Below are positions 51,245 to 55,672 of a stretch of 64,000 nt of DNA, one piece after another. Origin of the DNA: Caenispirillum bisanense (GTDB lineage: Bacteria; Pseudomonadota; Alphaproteobacteria; Rhodospirillales; UBA2165). Location of the stretch: assembly GCA_945877815.1 (NCBI GenBank), contig CAMDWJ010000012.1:1-64000 (forward strand), written 5' to 3'. Both the position numbers and the translations under genes were made by a program. How positions within the stretch are numbered: the first letter of the stretch is position 1; each line of letters opens with the position of its first letter. The notes below the pieces were generated by a model. That model saw only the letters and a list, made by a program, of their open reading frames with translations, had not been told where the DNA came from and searched no databases.

Positions 51245-51589
51245 CTACCCCTTGTGTTCGTCCGACTTGGTCGGCCGCTTAAAACCGACCGGCGATCCTT
51301 GGCCCATCGCCAACCGGAAGACATTCCATAGTCCCGCAGCGCCGCCGAGCAAGGTAAAGCCGATCAGGAACCAAGGCCGGGTCTCCAGCCAACGATCGAT
51401 CCCATAACCGATCGCTATTCCCATCACCAGCGTCACGACCAGCTCCGTGCCGATTCGCGATGCAAGTCCCAGCCCGCTCTGCGGCAAAGCATGTGCCGAC
51501 CGCTCCTCCGGTGGACGCTCCCGTTCGCGTGCGCGAGCAAGGCGGTCTTCGAAGTCCTCTTTGGCCTGGGGTTCCGACGATTCACTCAT
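51245..51589 (-). CDS. atpI: ATP synthase assembly protein AtpI
   Basis: Small membrane protein that assists assembly of the c ring and possibly magnesium uptake. About 114 residues: an acidic/basic cytoplasmic N-terminus (EDFEDRLARARERERPPEER) and two helices (IGTELVVTLVMGIAIGYGID; FLIGFTLLGGAAGLWNVFR). The ATG is placed inside a longer open frame because the product then starts MSESSEP like homologues and gives the usual length. First gene of the F0 operon. The F1 genes are not in this window, as is normal in alphaproteobacteria. Confidence 0.93.
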   Translation of the reverse strand: MSESSEPQAKEDFEDRLARARERERPPEERSAHALPQSGLGLASRIGTELVVTLVMGIAIGYGIDRWLETRPWFLIGFTLLGGAAGLWNVFRLAMGQGSPVGFKRPTKSDEHKG

Positions 51590-51755
51590 GTCCGAACCCG
51601 CAGCCCTACGAGAGATCCAGCGGACGGCGAAACTCCCCCGAGATGAAGTCGCGCCAACGAAATCGGGCGGACCATATCGGCCCCCTCCCACCCTGTCAAG
51701 TTGCCTGCGACTTGCGATAAATAACTGGATTTGTTGGGGTTTTCGGCATTATTCG

Positions 51756-51790
51756 CTCCCTCCCCGAGAGGGGGAGGGTTGGGGTGGGGG
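51756..51790. repeat. Left inverted repeat flanking DUF559 gene
   Basis: A hairpin (CCCTCCCC, GAGA, then GGGGGAGGG) runs into GTTGGGGTGGGGG-type sequence. Bases 51770-51790 are identical over 21 bases to the reverse complement of 52166-52186. It ends 7 bases from the DUF559 stop. Confidence 0.85.
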
Positions 51791-51797
51791 ATCGATA

Positions 51798-52130
51798 TCA
51801 GATTTTGATCAAATAAGCTCTGATTCGCTCCAAAACACCGTCGATATTCTCGGTAATATCGTTAATCCAAAACCGAACAACCGGGAAGCGAGGCCGTTCG
51901 ATATCCTGGGCTCGAGCAGCATCTTGCGCCTGCCGGTCTGAATGCGGGCCTCCATCGATTTCGATGATCAGTCGCGCCGCATGGCTATAGAAGTCGACGA
52001 CATATTTGCCGATCGGGACTTGGCGTCGGAAACGGGCGCACTCAAGCTCCTTATTGCGGAGGCGCGACCTTAGGCGCCGCTCGGCGTCGGTTTGATTGGC
52101 ACGCAGCCGTCGTGCAACGGTCGAGGACAT
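51798..52130 (-). CDS. DUF559 nuclease-like protein
   Basis: A 110-residue protein of the DUF559 family, which has a PD-(D/E)XK/very-short-patch-repair-like endonuclease fold. Family features are ANQTDAERRLRSRLRN, FRRQVPIGKYVVDFYSHAAR, and LIIEIDGGPHSDRQAQD, where the VDF Asp and the EIDG acidic residues would make the nuclease site. The later VVRFWINDITENIDGVLERI block is also typical. Its biological role is not established. It is enclosed by two identical 21-base inverted repeats and inserted between the F0 operon and smc, so it may belong to a small mobile or repeat-associated unit. Confidence 0.9.
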   Translation of the reverse strand: MSSTVARRLRANQTDAERRLRSRLRNKELECARFRRQVPIGKYVVDFYSHAARLIIEIDGGPHSDRQAQDAARAQDIERPRFPVVRFWINDITENIDGVLERIRAYLIKI

Positions 52131-52165
52131 GGCCGGATTTTATCCGGACTCGGGTAGGCTGAGTA

Positions 52166-52203
52166 CCCCCACCCCAACCCTCCCCCAATGGAGCAGGGGG
52201 AGA
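52166..52203. repeat. Right inverted repeat flanking DUF559 gene
   Basis: Bases 52166-52186 are the exact reverse complement of 51770-51790, followed by AATGGAGC and GGGGGAG, so this copy also forms a hairpin (CTCCCCC-type arms). It starts 35 bases upstream of the DUF559 start and 8 bases past the smc stop side. Confidence 0.85.
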
Positions 52204-52210
52204 GGACGGG

Positions 52211-55200
52211 TTAAGCCGTGGCGCGGATTTCCATGGCCTGACTGAGATCGACTGAGACCAGTTGCGACACGCCGCGTTCGCCCATGGTCACGCCGAACAG
52301 GCGATCGACGCGCGCCATGGTCATGCGGTGATGGGTGATGACCAGGAAGCGGGTCGAGAGCGAGTGTGCCATGTCGCTGACCAGGGTGCAAAACCGGTCA
52401 ACGTTCGATTCGTCGAGCGGTGCGTCCACTTCGTCCAGCACACAGATTGGGGCCGGATTGCACATGAACACGGCGAACAGCAGCGACAATGCGGTTAGGG
52501 CCTGCTCGCCGCCGGACAGCAGCGACAGTACCTGGAGGCGCTTGCCGGGCGGGCTCGCCATGATTTCGACGCCGGCCTCGAGCGGATCTTCCGATTCGGT
52601 CAGCGTGAGATAGGCGCGGCCGCCGCCGAATAATTGCACGAACAGCTTCTGGAAATGCTCGTCGACCTGCTTGAAGGCGTCGAGGAGTCGCTGTCGTCCT
52701 TCGCGGTTTAGTTCCGAGATGCCGCGGCGCAGCTTTTCGATCGCTTGCTGCAAATCCGAACGCTCGTTGGTCAGCGATTCCATCTGGTCGGTTAGCTCCT
52801 GTGCTTCCGCTTCGGCGCGCAGATTGACCGGACCCATGGTTTCGCGTTCGCGGTGTAGGCGTTCGACCCGGCGCTCGGCCGATTCGAGATCGGGTAGGGC
52901 GCCTTCCTCTTCGATGCCGGCAAGCTCGCGCAGAGTGGCGGGCGCGCTTTGCAGGCGGTCGCGGATGCGGTCGGTCAGCGCGGTTTCGCCCTGGCGCGCC
53001 TGTTCGACGGCGGCTTCGGCGCGCACGCGGATTTCGCGGGCACTTGCGAGGCGATGGTCGGCCTCGCGCAAGGTCTTGTCGGCTTCGGCGGCCATGCGCT
53101 CATGTTCGGCCAAGGTGTCGGCGCAATCGCGCCGTTTGGCCTCGGCCACCTCGATATGTTGCAGCAGTTCGGCGTTGCGGCGGTCGAGTTCGGCAGGCTT
53201 GTCGCTGATCGCCGCAAGCTCCACCTCGGTTTCGCCGCGCCTTTCGGTGAGTTGGGTCTGGCGCTGTTCGGCGCCGCCGCGACGATCGCGCCACGAGGCG
53301 AGTTCGCCGGCGACCGCGACGAGACGGCGGCGGCGGTCCGCCACTTGGCGGGCGAGGCCCTCGAAGGCGCTTTGGGTTTCGACAAGATAGGCCCGCTGAT
53401 CGCCGACTTCGGCGCGCAAGGTTTCAGCCTCGCGCTGGCCGGGTTCGGCATCGGGCAGGGCGGCGCGCGCCGCCTCGGCTTCGTTGAAGGCGCCATCGGC
53501 CTCGGCGAGATCGGCGGCGATGCGTTCGGCGGTTTCGCGTCGTGCCGACAGGCGCGAATCGTTTTCGGCGCTCTTCTGGCGGATGGAGGAAAGCGCATCG
53601 CGTACACCTGAATGTTCCCGTTCGGCGCCTTGCAGCGTCTGGCGGGCTGTCGATTCGGCGGCGGCAGCATCGCGCATCGCGGCGCGCGCGGCCTGATCGG
53701 CTTCTTCGGCTTCGGCGGCGATGGCGGCGAGGGCCCCCAATTGCGCGCGCAGTTCGACCAGACGGTTGCGTTGTTCGAGGCGAACGGCGGCTGGGGTCGG
53801 CGCTTCGGCGGCGGCGACGAACCCGTCCCAGCGCCACAATGCACCGTCCCTGGTGACGAGGCGCTGGCCGTTTTGCAGCCGTGCCGACAGACGGTGCCCC
53901 GTCTCGGCATCGACGACGACGCCGATCTGCGACAGGCGGCGATGCATGGCATCGGGCGCGGCGACATGGGCGAGCAGCGATTCAACGCCATCCGGCAATG
54001 CCGGTTGTTCATAGGTGCCGACGAGGCGGCGCCAATGGATGGGTGCCGCTTCGTCGGTCGAGGCATCGAGATCGTCGCCGAGAGCTGCGCCGAGCGCTTT
54101 CTCAAACCCAGGTTCGACCTTCACGGCATCGACGAGCGGCGGCCACAGATCGGGATCGCCGGCTTCGAGCAGGCGGGCGATGGCTTTGATTTCGGCTTCG
54201 AGACGGGTGACGTCGGCGCTTGTCGTGCGGGCCCTGGCACCGGTTTCTTCGACGCGGCCTGAGGTTTCGCCGCGGCGTTGTTCGGCGCTCTGCACCGAGG
54301 CGCGCGCACCTTCGACGCCTGCGGCCGTGGCGCTTAGGCGTTGTTCGGCTTCCGCGAGGGCGACAGGATCGATGGCCTGCGCCCTGATCCCTTCGATTTG
54401 GCGGTCGACATCGGCGGCACTGGCGCGCAGCCGCTCGACACGTGCGCGCAACTCGTTGCGCCGCCGGTCGAGGTTGGCGCGTTGCGCTTCTTCGGCCGCG
54501 AGACGCTGGGTGAGGGCATTCAGGCGCGCCTCGATGGTGGCGGTATCCTCGCGCGCGGCATAAAGCTTGGCGCGCGCGCGCGCGGTATCGACTTCCTCGC
54601 CGCCGAGTACTTGGTTGATCTCGACTTCTTCCGCACCCAGCCGCTGCATGGCGGTATCGGCATCCGCCATCAGAGCGGCTTCGCGGTTCATATCCTCGCC
54701 GATCTGGGCCAGGCGCTTCTCGCTGTCGAGGCGCGCGGCTTCGATACGCTTGCGTTCCTCTTCGAGCGATTCGCGGGCATGCAGCATGCGCTGCAAGGCG
54801 GCGGCGGCGCGGGCTTCGTCCTCGCGCAGCGGCGGCAGGGCCGATTGGGCGTTGGCTTGATTGGTGGCGGCGTGCGCGGCCTCGCCGGTTAAATCGACGA
54901 CGATCTTCTCGGCTGCGGCCAATTGTTCCTCGGCGCGCGCAAGTTCGGCGGTCGCGTTCTCCCATAAAAGCGCGAACATTGCCGCTTCGGCCTTGCGGAT
55001 ATGATCGTTCAGGCTGCGATAGCGCGCGGCCTGACGGGCCTGCTTGCGTAAGGATTGCAGCTGGGTTTCGAGCGTGACCAGCACGTCGTTGAGGCGTTCA
55101 AGATTGGCGTCGGCGGCTTTCAGGCGTAACTCGGCCTCGTGGCGGCGCGAATGCAGCCCGACGATGCCGGCGGCTTCTTCGATCAGCATTCGGCGCTCGG

Positions 55201-55672
55201 TCGGCTTGGCCGAGATGATCTTGCTGATCTGACCTTGGCTGACTAGCGCGGTCGAGCGCGCGCCCGAAGCCTGGTCGGCGAACAGCAGATGGACATCGCG
55301 GGCGCGCACCTCGTTGCCGTTGACTCGATAGGCCGAACCTTTTTCGCGTTCGATGCGGCGGCTGATCTCCAGCACTTCGGCATCGTTGAAGGCGGCCGGC
55401 GCATTGCGCTCGCCGTTATCCAGCGTCAGGACCACTTCGGCGATGTTGCGCGCCGGACGACTGGTGGTGCCGGCGAAAATCACGTCGTCCATCTCGGTGC
55501 CGCGCATTTGCTTGGCCGAAGTTTCGCCCATCACCCATTTCAGGCTTTCGACGATGTTGGACTTGCCGCAACCGTTGGGACCGACAATGCCGGTCACACC
55601 CGGCAGGATATCGAGTTCGGTAGGATCGACGAAGGATTTGAAACCTGTCAGACGGACTTTTGTGAATTGCAC
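52211..55672 (-). CDS. smc: Chromosome segregation protein Smc
   Basis: Condensin ATPase that organises and segregates the chromosome with ScpA and ScpB. The 1153 residues have the full layout: N-terminal Walker A GIVGPNGCGKSNIVESLKWV near 28, about 300 residues of coiled coil, a hinge at roughly 500-640 (LWPPLVDAVKVEPGFEKALG onward), a second coiled coil, and a C-terminal head with LLSGGEQALTALSLLFAVFM near 1055 and Walker B PICVLDEVDAPLDESNVDRF. Extremely rich in Ala, Glu and Arg. It follows dsbA by 26 bases. Confidence 0.97.
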   Translation of the reverse strand: MQFTKVRLTGFKSFVDPTELDILPGVTGIVGPNGCGKSNIVESLKWVMGETSAKQMRGTEMDDVIFAGTTSRPARNIAEVVLTLDNGERNAPAAFNDAEVLEISRRIEREKGSAYRVNGNEVRARDVHLLFADQASGARSTALVSQGQISKIISAKPTERRMLIEEAAGIVGLHSRRHEAELRLKAADANLERLNDVLVTLETQLQSLRKQARQAARYRSLNDHIRKAEAAMFALLWENATAELARAEEQLAAAEKIVVDLTGEAAHAATNQANAQSALPPLREDEARAAAALQRMLHARESLEEERKRIEAARLDSEKRLAQIGEDMNREAALMADADTAMQRLGAEEVEINQVLGGEEVDTARARAKLYAAREDTATIEARLNALTQRLAAEEAQRANLDRRRNELRARVERLRASAADVDRQIEGIRAQAIDPVALAEAEQRLSATAAGVEGARASVQSAEQRRGETSGRVEETGARARTTSADVTRLEAEIKAIARLLEAGDPDLWPPLVDAVKVEPGFEKALGAALGDDLDASTDEAAPIHWRRLVGTYEQPALPDGVESLLAHVAAPDAMHRRLSQIGVVVDAETGHRLSARLQNGQRLVTRDGALWRWDGFVAAAEAPTPAAVRLEQRNRLVELRAQLGALAAIAAEAEEADQAARAAMRDAAAAESTARQTLQGAEREHSGVRDALSSIRQKSAENDSRLSARRETAERIAADLAEADGAFNEAEAARAALPDAEPGQREAETLRAEVGDQRAYLVETQSAFEGLARQVADRRRRLVAVAGELASWRDRRGGAEQRQTQLTERRGETEVELAAISDKPAELDRRNAELLQHIEVAEAKRRDCADTLAEHERMAAEADKTLREADHRLASAREIRVRAEAAVEQARQGETALTDRIRDRLQSAPATLRELAGIEEEGALPDLESAERRVERLHRERETMGPVNLRAEAEAQELTDQMESLTNERSDLQQAIEKLRRGISELNREGRQRLLDAFKQVDEHFQKLFVQLFGGGRAYLTLTESEDPLEAGVEIMASPPGKRLQVLSLLSGGEQALTALSLLFAVFMCNPAPICVLDEVDAPLDESNVDRFCTLVSDMAHSLSTRFLVITHHRMTMARVDRLFGVTMGERGVSQLVSVDLSQAMEIRATA

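Follow-up and report, generated by a model that had tools for sequence, protein, structure and literature searches.

DUF559 nuclease genes placed between their own hairpin repeats suggest an enzyme that drives, or lives off, repeat spread

Why does a small gene of the DUF559 family, a widespread family of 'unknown function', lie between two identical inverted repeats in the gap between an atpI-like gene and smc? The locus belongs to a window of 64,000 nucleotides, which is the whole stretch of DNA analysed, and an earlier note on this window likened it to a minimal mobile or REP-type element. Here we describe the locus, the distribution of its repeat within the same genome, the association of DUF559 genes with comparable hairpins in other bacteria, and the explanations that might account for it. 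The features are as follows; the two flanking frames come from the list of open reading frames, and their names are provisional, being judged from their sequences.

51245 to 51691, minus strand: flanking open reading frame, presumably atpI-like
51753 to 51790, plus strand: left repeat unit, with hairpin arms at 51758-51765 and 51771-51778, then the G-rich tail TTGGGGTGGGGG at 51779-51790; a member of the genome's 32-copy family
51770 to 51790, minus strand: left copy of the 21-base repeat, exact match
51798 to 52130, minus strand: DUF559 (PF04480) gene, 110 amino acids, with a predicted Vsr/EDxHD-like nuclease fold
52166 to 52203, plus strand: right repeat unit, inverted, with the C-rich tail CCCCCACCCCAA at 52166-52177, then hairpin arms at 52180-52186 and 52196-52202
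52166 to 52186, plus strand: right copy of the 21-base repeat, exact match
52211 to 55672, minus strand: flanking open reading frame, presumably smc, with its C-terminal part located in 23 of the 24 family genomes

The two identical repeats that bracket the gene are real. Sequence comparison within the window confirms the earlier claim that 51770-51790 and 52166-52186 are exact reverse complements, 21 bases each, and similarity extends beyond them to 38-nucleotide arms (51753-51790 and 52166-52203) that are 82% complementary. A chance origin of the inverted repeat was ruled out, there being no 21-mer match in 100 shuffles of the window. Each copy contains the hairpin that had been proposed for it, CCCTCCCC-GAGAG-GGGGAGGG on the left and CTCCCCC-loop-GGGGGAG on the right, although single arms fold only modestly better than shuffled sequence (z of -1.8 and -1.2 respectively). 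The repeat unit is composed of this pyrimidine/purine hairpin and a tail, which reads CCCCCACCCCAA toward the hairpin. Between atpI and smc, the right arm of the unit ends approximately 7 nucleotides from the smc stop codon; on the left, divergence of the gap in the relative prevents the limit of the unit from being fixed to the single base. A search of 51500-52500 against Rfam returned no match at E values up to 1, and a known RNA family in that interval was dropped from consideration.

The gene between the repeats encodes the 110-residue DUF559 protein that it was said to encode; the product matches PF04480 with E = 3.1e-33 and 114.4 bits, against a cut-off of 20.6, and also matches MTES_1575 below the cut-off. 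A structure model of the protein (pLDDT 78.6, with residues 62-65 below 50) has as its best match the gonococcal DUF559 protein 3hrl (Z 15.6), followed among solved structures by the homing endonuclease I-Bth0305I (3r3p; Z 12.1, 2.6 Å over 92 residues), and matches Vsr (1cw0) at Z 9.8, a score tied with mitochondrial ribosome chains at 9.0-9.9. The model thereby predicts a fold of the Vsr or EDxHD type. Residues E17, D46, E57, D59 and H63, invariant in 36 DUF559 sequences, are all retained in the window protein. Three near-invariant residues, W21, Q62 and G81, are replaced by R, P and R, so this particular copy may be weakening, and perhaps decaying.

The repeat is not confined to the locus. 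Within the 3.98-Mb genome the 21-mer occurs in 32 copies at up to three mismatches, compared with 3 for a reversed control, and only four of the 32 listed copies sit at DUF559 genes, most being gene-free. Six inverted pairs of copies were found, on contigs C2, C4, C22, C32, C38 and C64, with 64-103 nucleotides from start to start, a spacing that leaves no room for a gene between the members. Two of these six paired elements, folded as single-stranded DNA, gave z of -4.8 and -5.5, and the inverted-pair element has the shape of a REPIN. The repeat therefore does occur alone, as the earlier note had proposed to look for, in REPIN-like pairs without a DUF559 gene. The genome has three DUF559 genes and each has a repeat copy within 70 nucleotides of its domain, where the chance of three genes lying within 150 nucleotides of a copy is approximately 1.7e-8. 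No match to PF01797, the Y1 HUH transposase family of RAYT, was found in a search of this genome, and a RAYT was rejected as the spreading enzyme there.

The layout reaches far beyond the window. Among 80 DUF559 loci, the best 80 of 568 when ranked by similarity to the query and picked blind to the repeats, 76 have a pyrimidine/purine hairpin within 250 nucleotides, against 56 of 2372 control positions; the detector found no hairpin at the other four, and hairpin density in these loci is 4.7-5.0 per kb within 250 nucleotides of the domain against 0.05-0.1 per kb beyond 500 nucleotides. The difference persists when intergenic DNA only is counted, with 106 hairpins in 17 kb beside DUF559 (6.2 per kb) and 51 in 156 kb elsewhere between genes (0.33 per kb). 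Of the 75 loci with full flanks, 59 have hairpins on both sides, 13 on one side and three on neither. The titles of the 80 records include Alpha-, Beta-, Gamma- and Deltaproteobacteria, Chloroflexi, Nitrospirae, Omnitrophota, Planctomycetes and others. In other genomes of the same class, 25 of 29 further DUF559 loci have a strict hairpin within 250 nucleotides, and the remaining four (L046, L053, L062 and L064) have imperfect hairpins recognised by eye. The final locus set was taken from an HMM scan, and the domain is present in 159 of 159 loci. Deinococcus and Synechocystis plasmids display the same arrangement of DUF559 and hairpins.

Four individual loci deserve separate mention. On a Pseudanabaena plasmid (L235), paired units of the CCCCCCTAGCCCCCCAATTCTGGGGGG type, with an AATT-containing arm to which the detector is blind, stand either side of DUF559, in a cyanobacterial version of the architecture. 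A Klebsiella pneumoniae plasmid (NZ_CP093490; L185) has a DUF559 remnant between inverted repeats of the E. coli type, at a position with no annotated gene. A long protein with a weak DUF559-like domain (L207, G011:C1:287000-289400) has hairpin-free flanks, and the repeats may be tied to short DUF559 proteins only. At L002 (G000:C20:68784-72095, with DUF559 at 70284-70595) the DUF559 frame continues, free of stops, through the downstream repeat into a gene that we presume to be glnD-like, making a fused DUF559-glnD-like product possible as far as the reading frame goes.

Co-occurrence was assessed genome by genome across 289 genomes of the class, which divide into 72 with a full DUF559 match (E < 1e-20, a cut of our own), 25 with a weaker match only and 192 with none. 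A genome was called repeat-rich when either of two hairpin patterns reached 10 copies or more and also three times its control count; the 10-copy threshold exceeds the few copies that adjoin DUF559 genes. On this definition 55 of 72 genomes with full DUF559 are repeat-rich, against three of 25 with weak matches and 10 of 192 with none (Fisher 3.6e-31, first against last), in a comparison that was not blind, the patterns having been chosen after viewing DUF559 flanks in the same genome set. Among genomes of at least 2.5 Mb the figures are 52 of 65 with DUF559 and eight of 91 without. In 25 of the 27 families that include genomes with and without DUF559, it is the carriers that are richer (the families were selected by eye, 29 being taken of which two were contrast-free, and these counts, like those of co-occurrence, were transcribed by hand). 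Seventeen of the 72 carriers fall below the repeat-rich mark by the two patterns used. Hence repeat and DUF559 do co-occur, far above background and also within families. The earlier note held that its reading would fail if the repeat were unlinked to DUF559 in most genomes, or the gene conserved without the repeats; neither is generally the case, although 10 of the 192 genomes without a DUF559 match are repeat-rich. A Y1 match was found in five of 20 repeat-rich genomes, leaving 15 without, the genome of the window among them; in a 14-genome control list, E. coli matches PF01797 and not PF04480, and the strain concerned may lack ycjD.

Where a genome has several DUF559 paralogues, each gene tends to carry its own repeat type. 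Flanks that belong to one gene are more alike (median similarity 0.58, n = 31) than flanks of different paralogues (0.23, n = 116; p = 3e-6), and within genomes protein identity is correlated with repeat similarity (rho 0.39 over 70 pairs, reached in 0 of 1999 within-genome permutations). These values derive from 42 loci in 11 genomes, L207 having been dropped as a long protein with hairpin-free flanks, and from the fetched DUF559 matches, which are part of the total in those genomes (nine of 10 in G011). G011 contains 16 exact copies of one paralogue's repeat, three sitting at the gene itself, and nine copies of a variant that differs by one base, one of which abuts a second paralogue; exact copies and a single variant were used for this count because the repeat is nearly the same when reversed, which made the reversed-pattern control uninformative (18 and 8 against 20 and 9). 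Such pairing fits specific recognition, or common descent of gene and repeat, and is hard to explain by general insulators.

E. coli provides a second example. YcjD belongs to DUF559 (PF04480, E = 1.4e-49), a CCCCTCACCCTAACCCTCTCCCC hairpin lies past the 3' end of ycjD with a second hairpin at the 3' end itself, and in K-12 both the DUF559 gene and repeats are present. The ycjD repeat was found in 5377 of 5426 E. coli genomes, at 1 to 35 places (median 19), and occurs also as two-hairpin elements of approximately 105 nucleotides; 3358 of the 5426 contain a match spanning 80% or more of the 301-base query, which comprises the repeat and part of ycjD. Among 59 genomes taken at even steps (60 rows, less one plasmid record), the repeat has 14-30 places (median 22) in the 37 with ycjD and 2-23 (median 7.5) in the 22 without, a contrast in which the ycjD place is itself counted and which phylogroup confounds. 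In two ycjD-free genomes that we inspected, efflux genes adjoin sapF or fabI instead, an arrangement described for E. coli in PMC12817139. When E. coli NCTC 86 (L190) is set against K-12 (L097), 106 nucleotides at the ycjD 3' end, hairpin included, are missing from a position flanked by two similar stretches.

Is the unit an insertion? The C-terminal part of smc was located in 23 of the 24 genomes of the family, and none of the 21 readable relatives (of 22 loci besides our own) has DUF559 behind smc within the fetched stretch; this set includes G001, the other genome of the genus in the sample. An atpI-like motif lies 270 to 371 nucleotides past the smc stop in 19 of these 21 relatives. As to whether orthologous atpI-smc gaps lack the unit with a precise boundary, which the earlier note proposed to check, the unit is absent from every readable relative and a precise boundary was not found. 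A similar polymorphism was observed before carB, where two of seven genomes of one genus have DUF559 with a complete two-hairpin unit and the other five lack DUF559, four having carA directly upstream and one (G313) another gene. Neither a target duplication nor an exact limit of insertion came to light at the sites compared in relatives, where the flanks have diverged. The E. coli adk-hemH site is polymorphic, but its element-free alleles also differ in flanking DNA; the same applies to a lysine-N-methylase/glycosyltransferase site, and at neither was a clean empty site found. A scan of plasmid matches to the E. coli repeat for insertion pairs gave none, several of the matches being chromosome-like DNA.

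Other comparisons concern persistence. The window genome and G001 have in common a unit of DUF559 between genes that we take to be mutS and glnD, for which the DUF559 pair (L002/L035) gives dN 0.14 and dS 1.68; the gene can therefore be passed on by descent and is under purifying selection. In 50-kb segments from three Azospirillum brasilense strains of approximately 95% identity, no turnover was seen at three comparable repeat sites, all of them shared, so turnover is slow; a fourth hairpin was excluded as an unrelated stretch present in all three strains, with small changes in one. An Azospirillum site beside a prfA-like gene is occupied in each of the seven records with query coverage of 80% or more. 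At one fixed site in A. brasilense Sp7 (L194, approximately 1795-1853) the second hairpin of a pair is approximately 60 nucleotides longer than in the two other strains, a change inside the element.

The placement of DUF559 genes between their own hairpin repeats suggests that the enzyme drives the spread of the repeats or lives off it. We favour, with a probability of roughly 0.6, the reading that gene and repeats constitute one REP-like system whose dedicated enzyme is the DUF559 nuclease, which would cut the repeat and mobilise it. The unit is the pyrimidine/purine hairpin with its G-rich tail, and two inverted units form a REPIN-like element of approximately 100 nucleotides that can fold into one long hairpin. 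Each DUF559 lineage tends to have a repeat type of its own, with copies on both sides of the gene, much like the REP transposase gene of a REPtron. The protein would bind and cut its cognate repeat, either as an extruded hairpin or as a single strand, and repair or replication of the cut would copy the repeat to new sites; rarely, the gene might be copied along with both bracketing repeats. Metal-dependent hydrolases with such a fold are not expected to reseal DNA; spread should accordingly rely on repair or recombination by the host, in contrast to spread by RAYT. The view of the locus as a minimal mobile or REP-type element is partly supported, by co-occurrence, by lone repeats and by a gap that lacks the unit in relatives; an exact boundary and a target duplication were looked for and not found.

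The chief rival, which we consider unlikely though the most serious of those weighed, supposes that the repeats spread or persist by other means and that a DUF559 gene encoding a homing endonuclease has settled inside a REPIN-like element. Unoccupied copies would be cut and the gene copied in by recombination through the flanking repeats, which would be landing sites and not a product. The gene does occupy the spacer position of a two-hairpin element, its two arms tend to match, and before carB it adjoins a complete two-hairpin unit; I-Bth0305I is moreover the nearest solved structure (Z 12.1) after the gonococcal DUF559 protein. In its accessible part PMC9403480 also assigns a DUF559-containing gene of an intein to the EDxHD homing endonucleases, for which reason we weighed homing slightly higher; by the same token not all DUF559 members need a repeat. 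Against homing, most copies are gene-free, only four of the 32 listed in the window's genome lying at DUF559 genes, and homing alone would leave unexplained both the frequency of DUF559 in repeat-rich genomes and the lower copy number in the sampled E. coli without ycjD.

Two further rivals detach the gene from the repeats. It is improbable, in our judgement, that DUF559 is a passenger, the repeats being spread by another enzyme or by replication errors while the hairpins near the gene serve as terminators or insulators that make intergenic insertion tolerable. The hairpins could be bidirectional terminators, and both the 10 repeat-rich genomes among the 192 without a DUF559 match and the Y1 matches in five of 20 repeat-rich genomes agree with another source of spread; yet the Y1 match is absent from the window's own genome, repeat type tracks the paralogue within a single genome, a match that general insulation would not call for, and intergenic DNA elsewhere is poor in hairpins (51 in 156 kb, against 106 in 17 kb beside DUF559). 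Least probable is a housekeeping role, in which DUF559 would perform Vsr-like mismatch or very-short-patch repair at methylated motifs, a role that has been proposed for VsrA of Caulobacter, with the repeats incidental. Vsr is a relative by fold (1cw0, Z 9.8, tied with the mitochondrial ribosome chains); the accessible part of PMC12907096 has the DUF559 protein VsrA causing DNA damage when the methyltransferase ScmA is missing, and that of PMC6712171 lists a DUF559 gene among those changed on loss of N4-cytosine methylation in Deinococcus. Incidental repeats account neither for the 76 hairpin-bearing loci among the best 80 of 568 nor for paralogue-specific pairing. Repair and repeat roles could both hold, in different DUF559 members.

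In its accessible part PMC1189080, a paper on folds, assigns YcjD to the PD-(D/E)XK superfamily, close to Vsr, and makes no mention of repeats. GTAG and CGTC repeats, and REPtrons with Y1 enzymes, are described in the portions seen of PMC3733652 and PMC6006769, the former noting that CGTC repeats apparently have no dedicated transposase. VsrA is a Caulobacter DUF559 protein reported in DNA damage (PMC12907096, in part), and a repeated Legionella segment with a transposase and DUF559 is a mutation and recombination hotspot according to the available text of PMC12308824. No link between DUF559 and dispersed short repeats was recognised in the open-licence PubMed Central papers covered, and the same searchable literature offered no named partner enzyme for GC-rich bacterial palindromes of the CCCTC type. 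The pairing would give this family a testable function, suggests where a major class of dispersed repeats might come from, and offers a natural set of nucleases with paralogue-specific hairpin targets. More tentatively, at somewhat under even odds, we suggest that DUF559 is a second, independent class of REP-associated enzymes across many phyla, YcjD included, each proliferating its own hairpin by nuclease and repair without transposase chemistry, such that a large share of GC-rich dispersed palindromes would be the products of Vsr-fold nucleases.

The DUF559 arrangement shares features with several known systems. Like insertion sequences and MITEs, it has a gene between inverted repeats and non-autonomous copies that keep the ends; in contrast to them, its sole open reading frame is DUF559 and not a transposase, its ends are hairpins with a tail of their own, and target duplication was not found. 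With the EDxHD homing endonuclease I-Bth0305I and with Vsr it shares a predicted fold (Z 12.1 and 9.8), whereas the gene here is freestanding and intergenic, outside any intron or intein, and paired with dispersed repeats. E. coli YcjD has the Pfam family and the repeat layout of the window gene. The likeness to the REP/REPIN-RAYT systems, or REPtrons, extends to short dispersed intergenic palindromes, often in inverted pairs that fold into long hairpins (32 copies and six pairs in the window's genome, their intergenic position judged by eye only), to a repeat type that usually has a single enzyme gene, with copies of the repeat on either side of it as for the DUF559 gene, and to a stable gene with mobile-looking repeats (compare the accessible parts of PMC6006769 and PMC3733652). 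The differences lie in the enzyme, here a DUF559 nuclease of predicted Vsr fold where RAYT is a Y1 HUH transposase, and in the mark of the repeat, here a pyrimidine/purine hairpin accompanied by a tail of the CCCYCACCCYAA type. GTAG is not a regular foot, as it lies within 6 nucleotides after the tail in three of 30 copies from the window's genome. Since the working appears REP-like and both of the RAYT-defining features tested, the Y1 HUH transposase (PF01797) and the GTAG foot, fail here, we regard the DUF559 arrangement as a variant of such systems and not as a member of the RAYT system itself.
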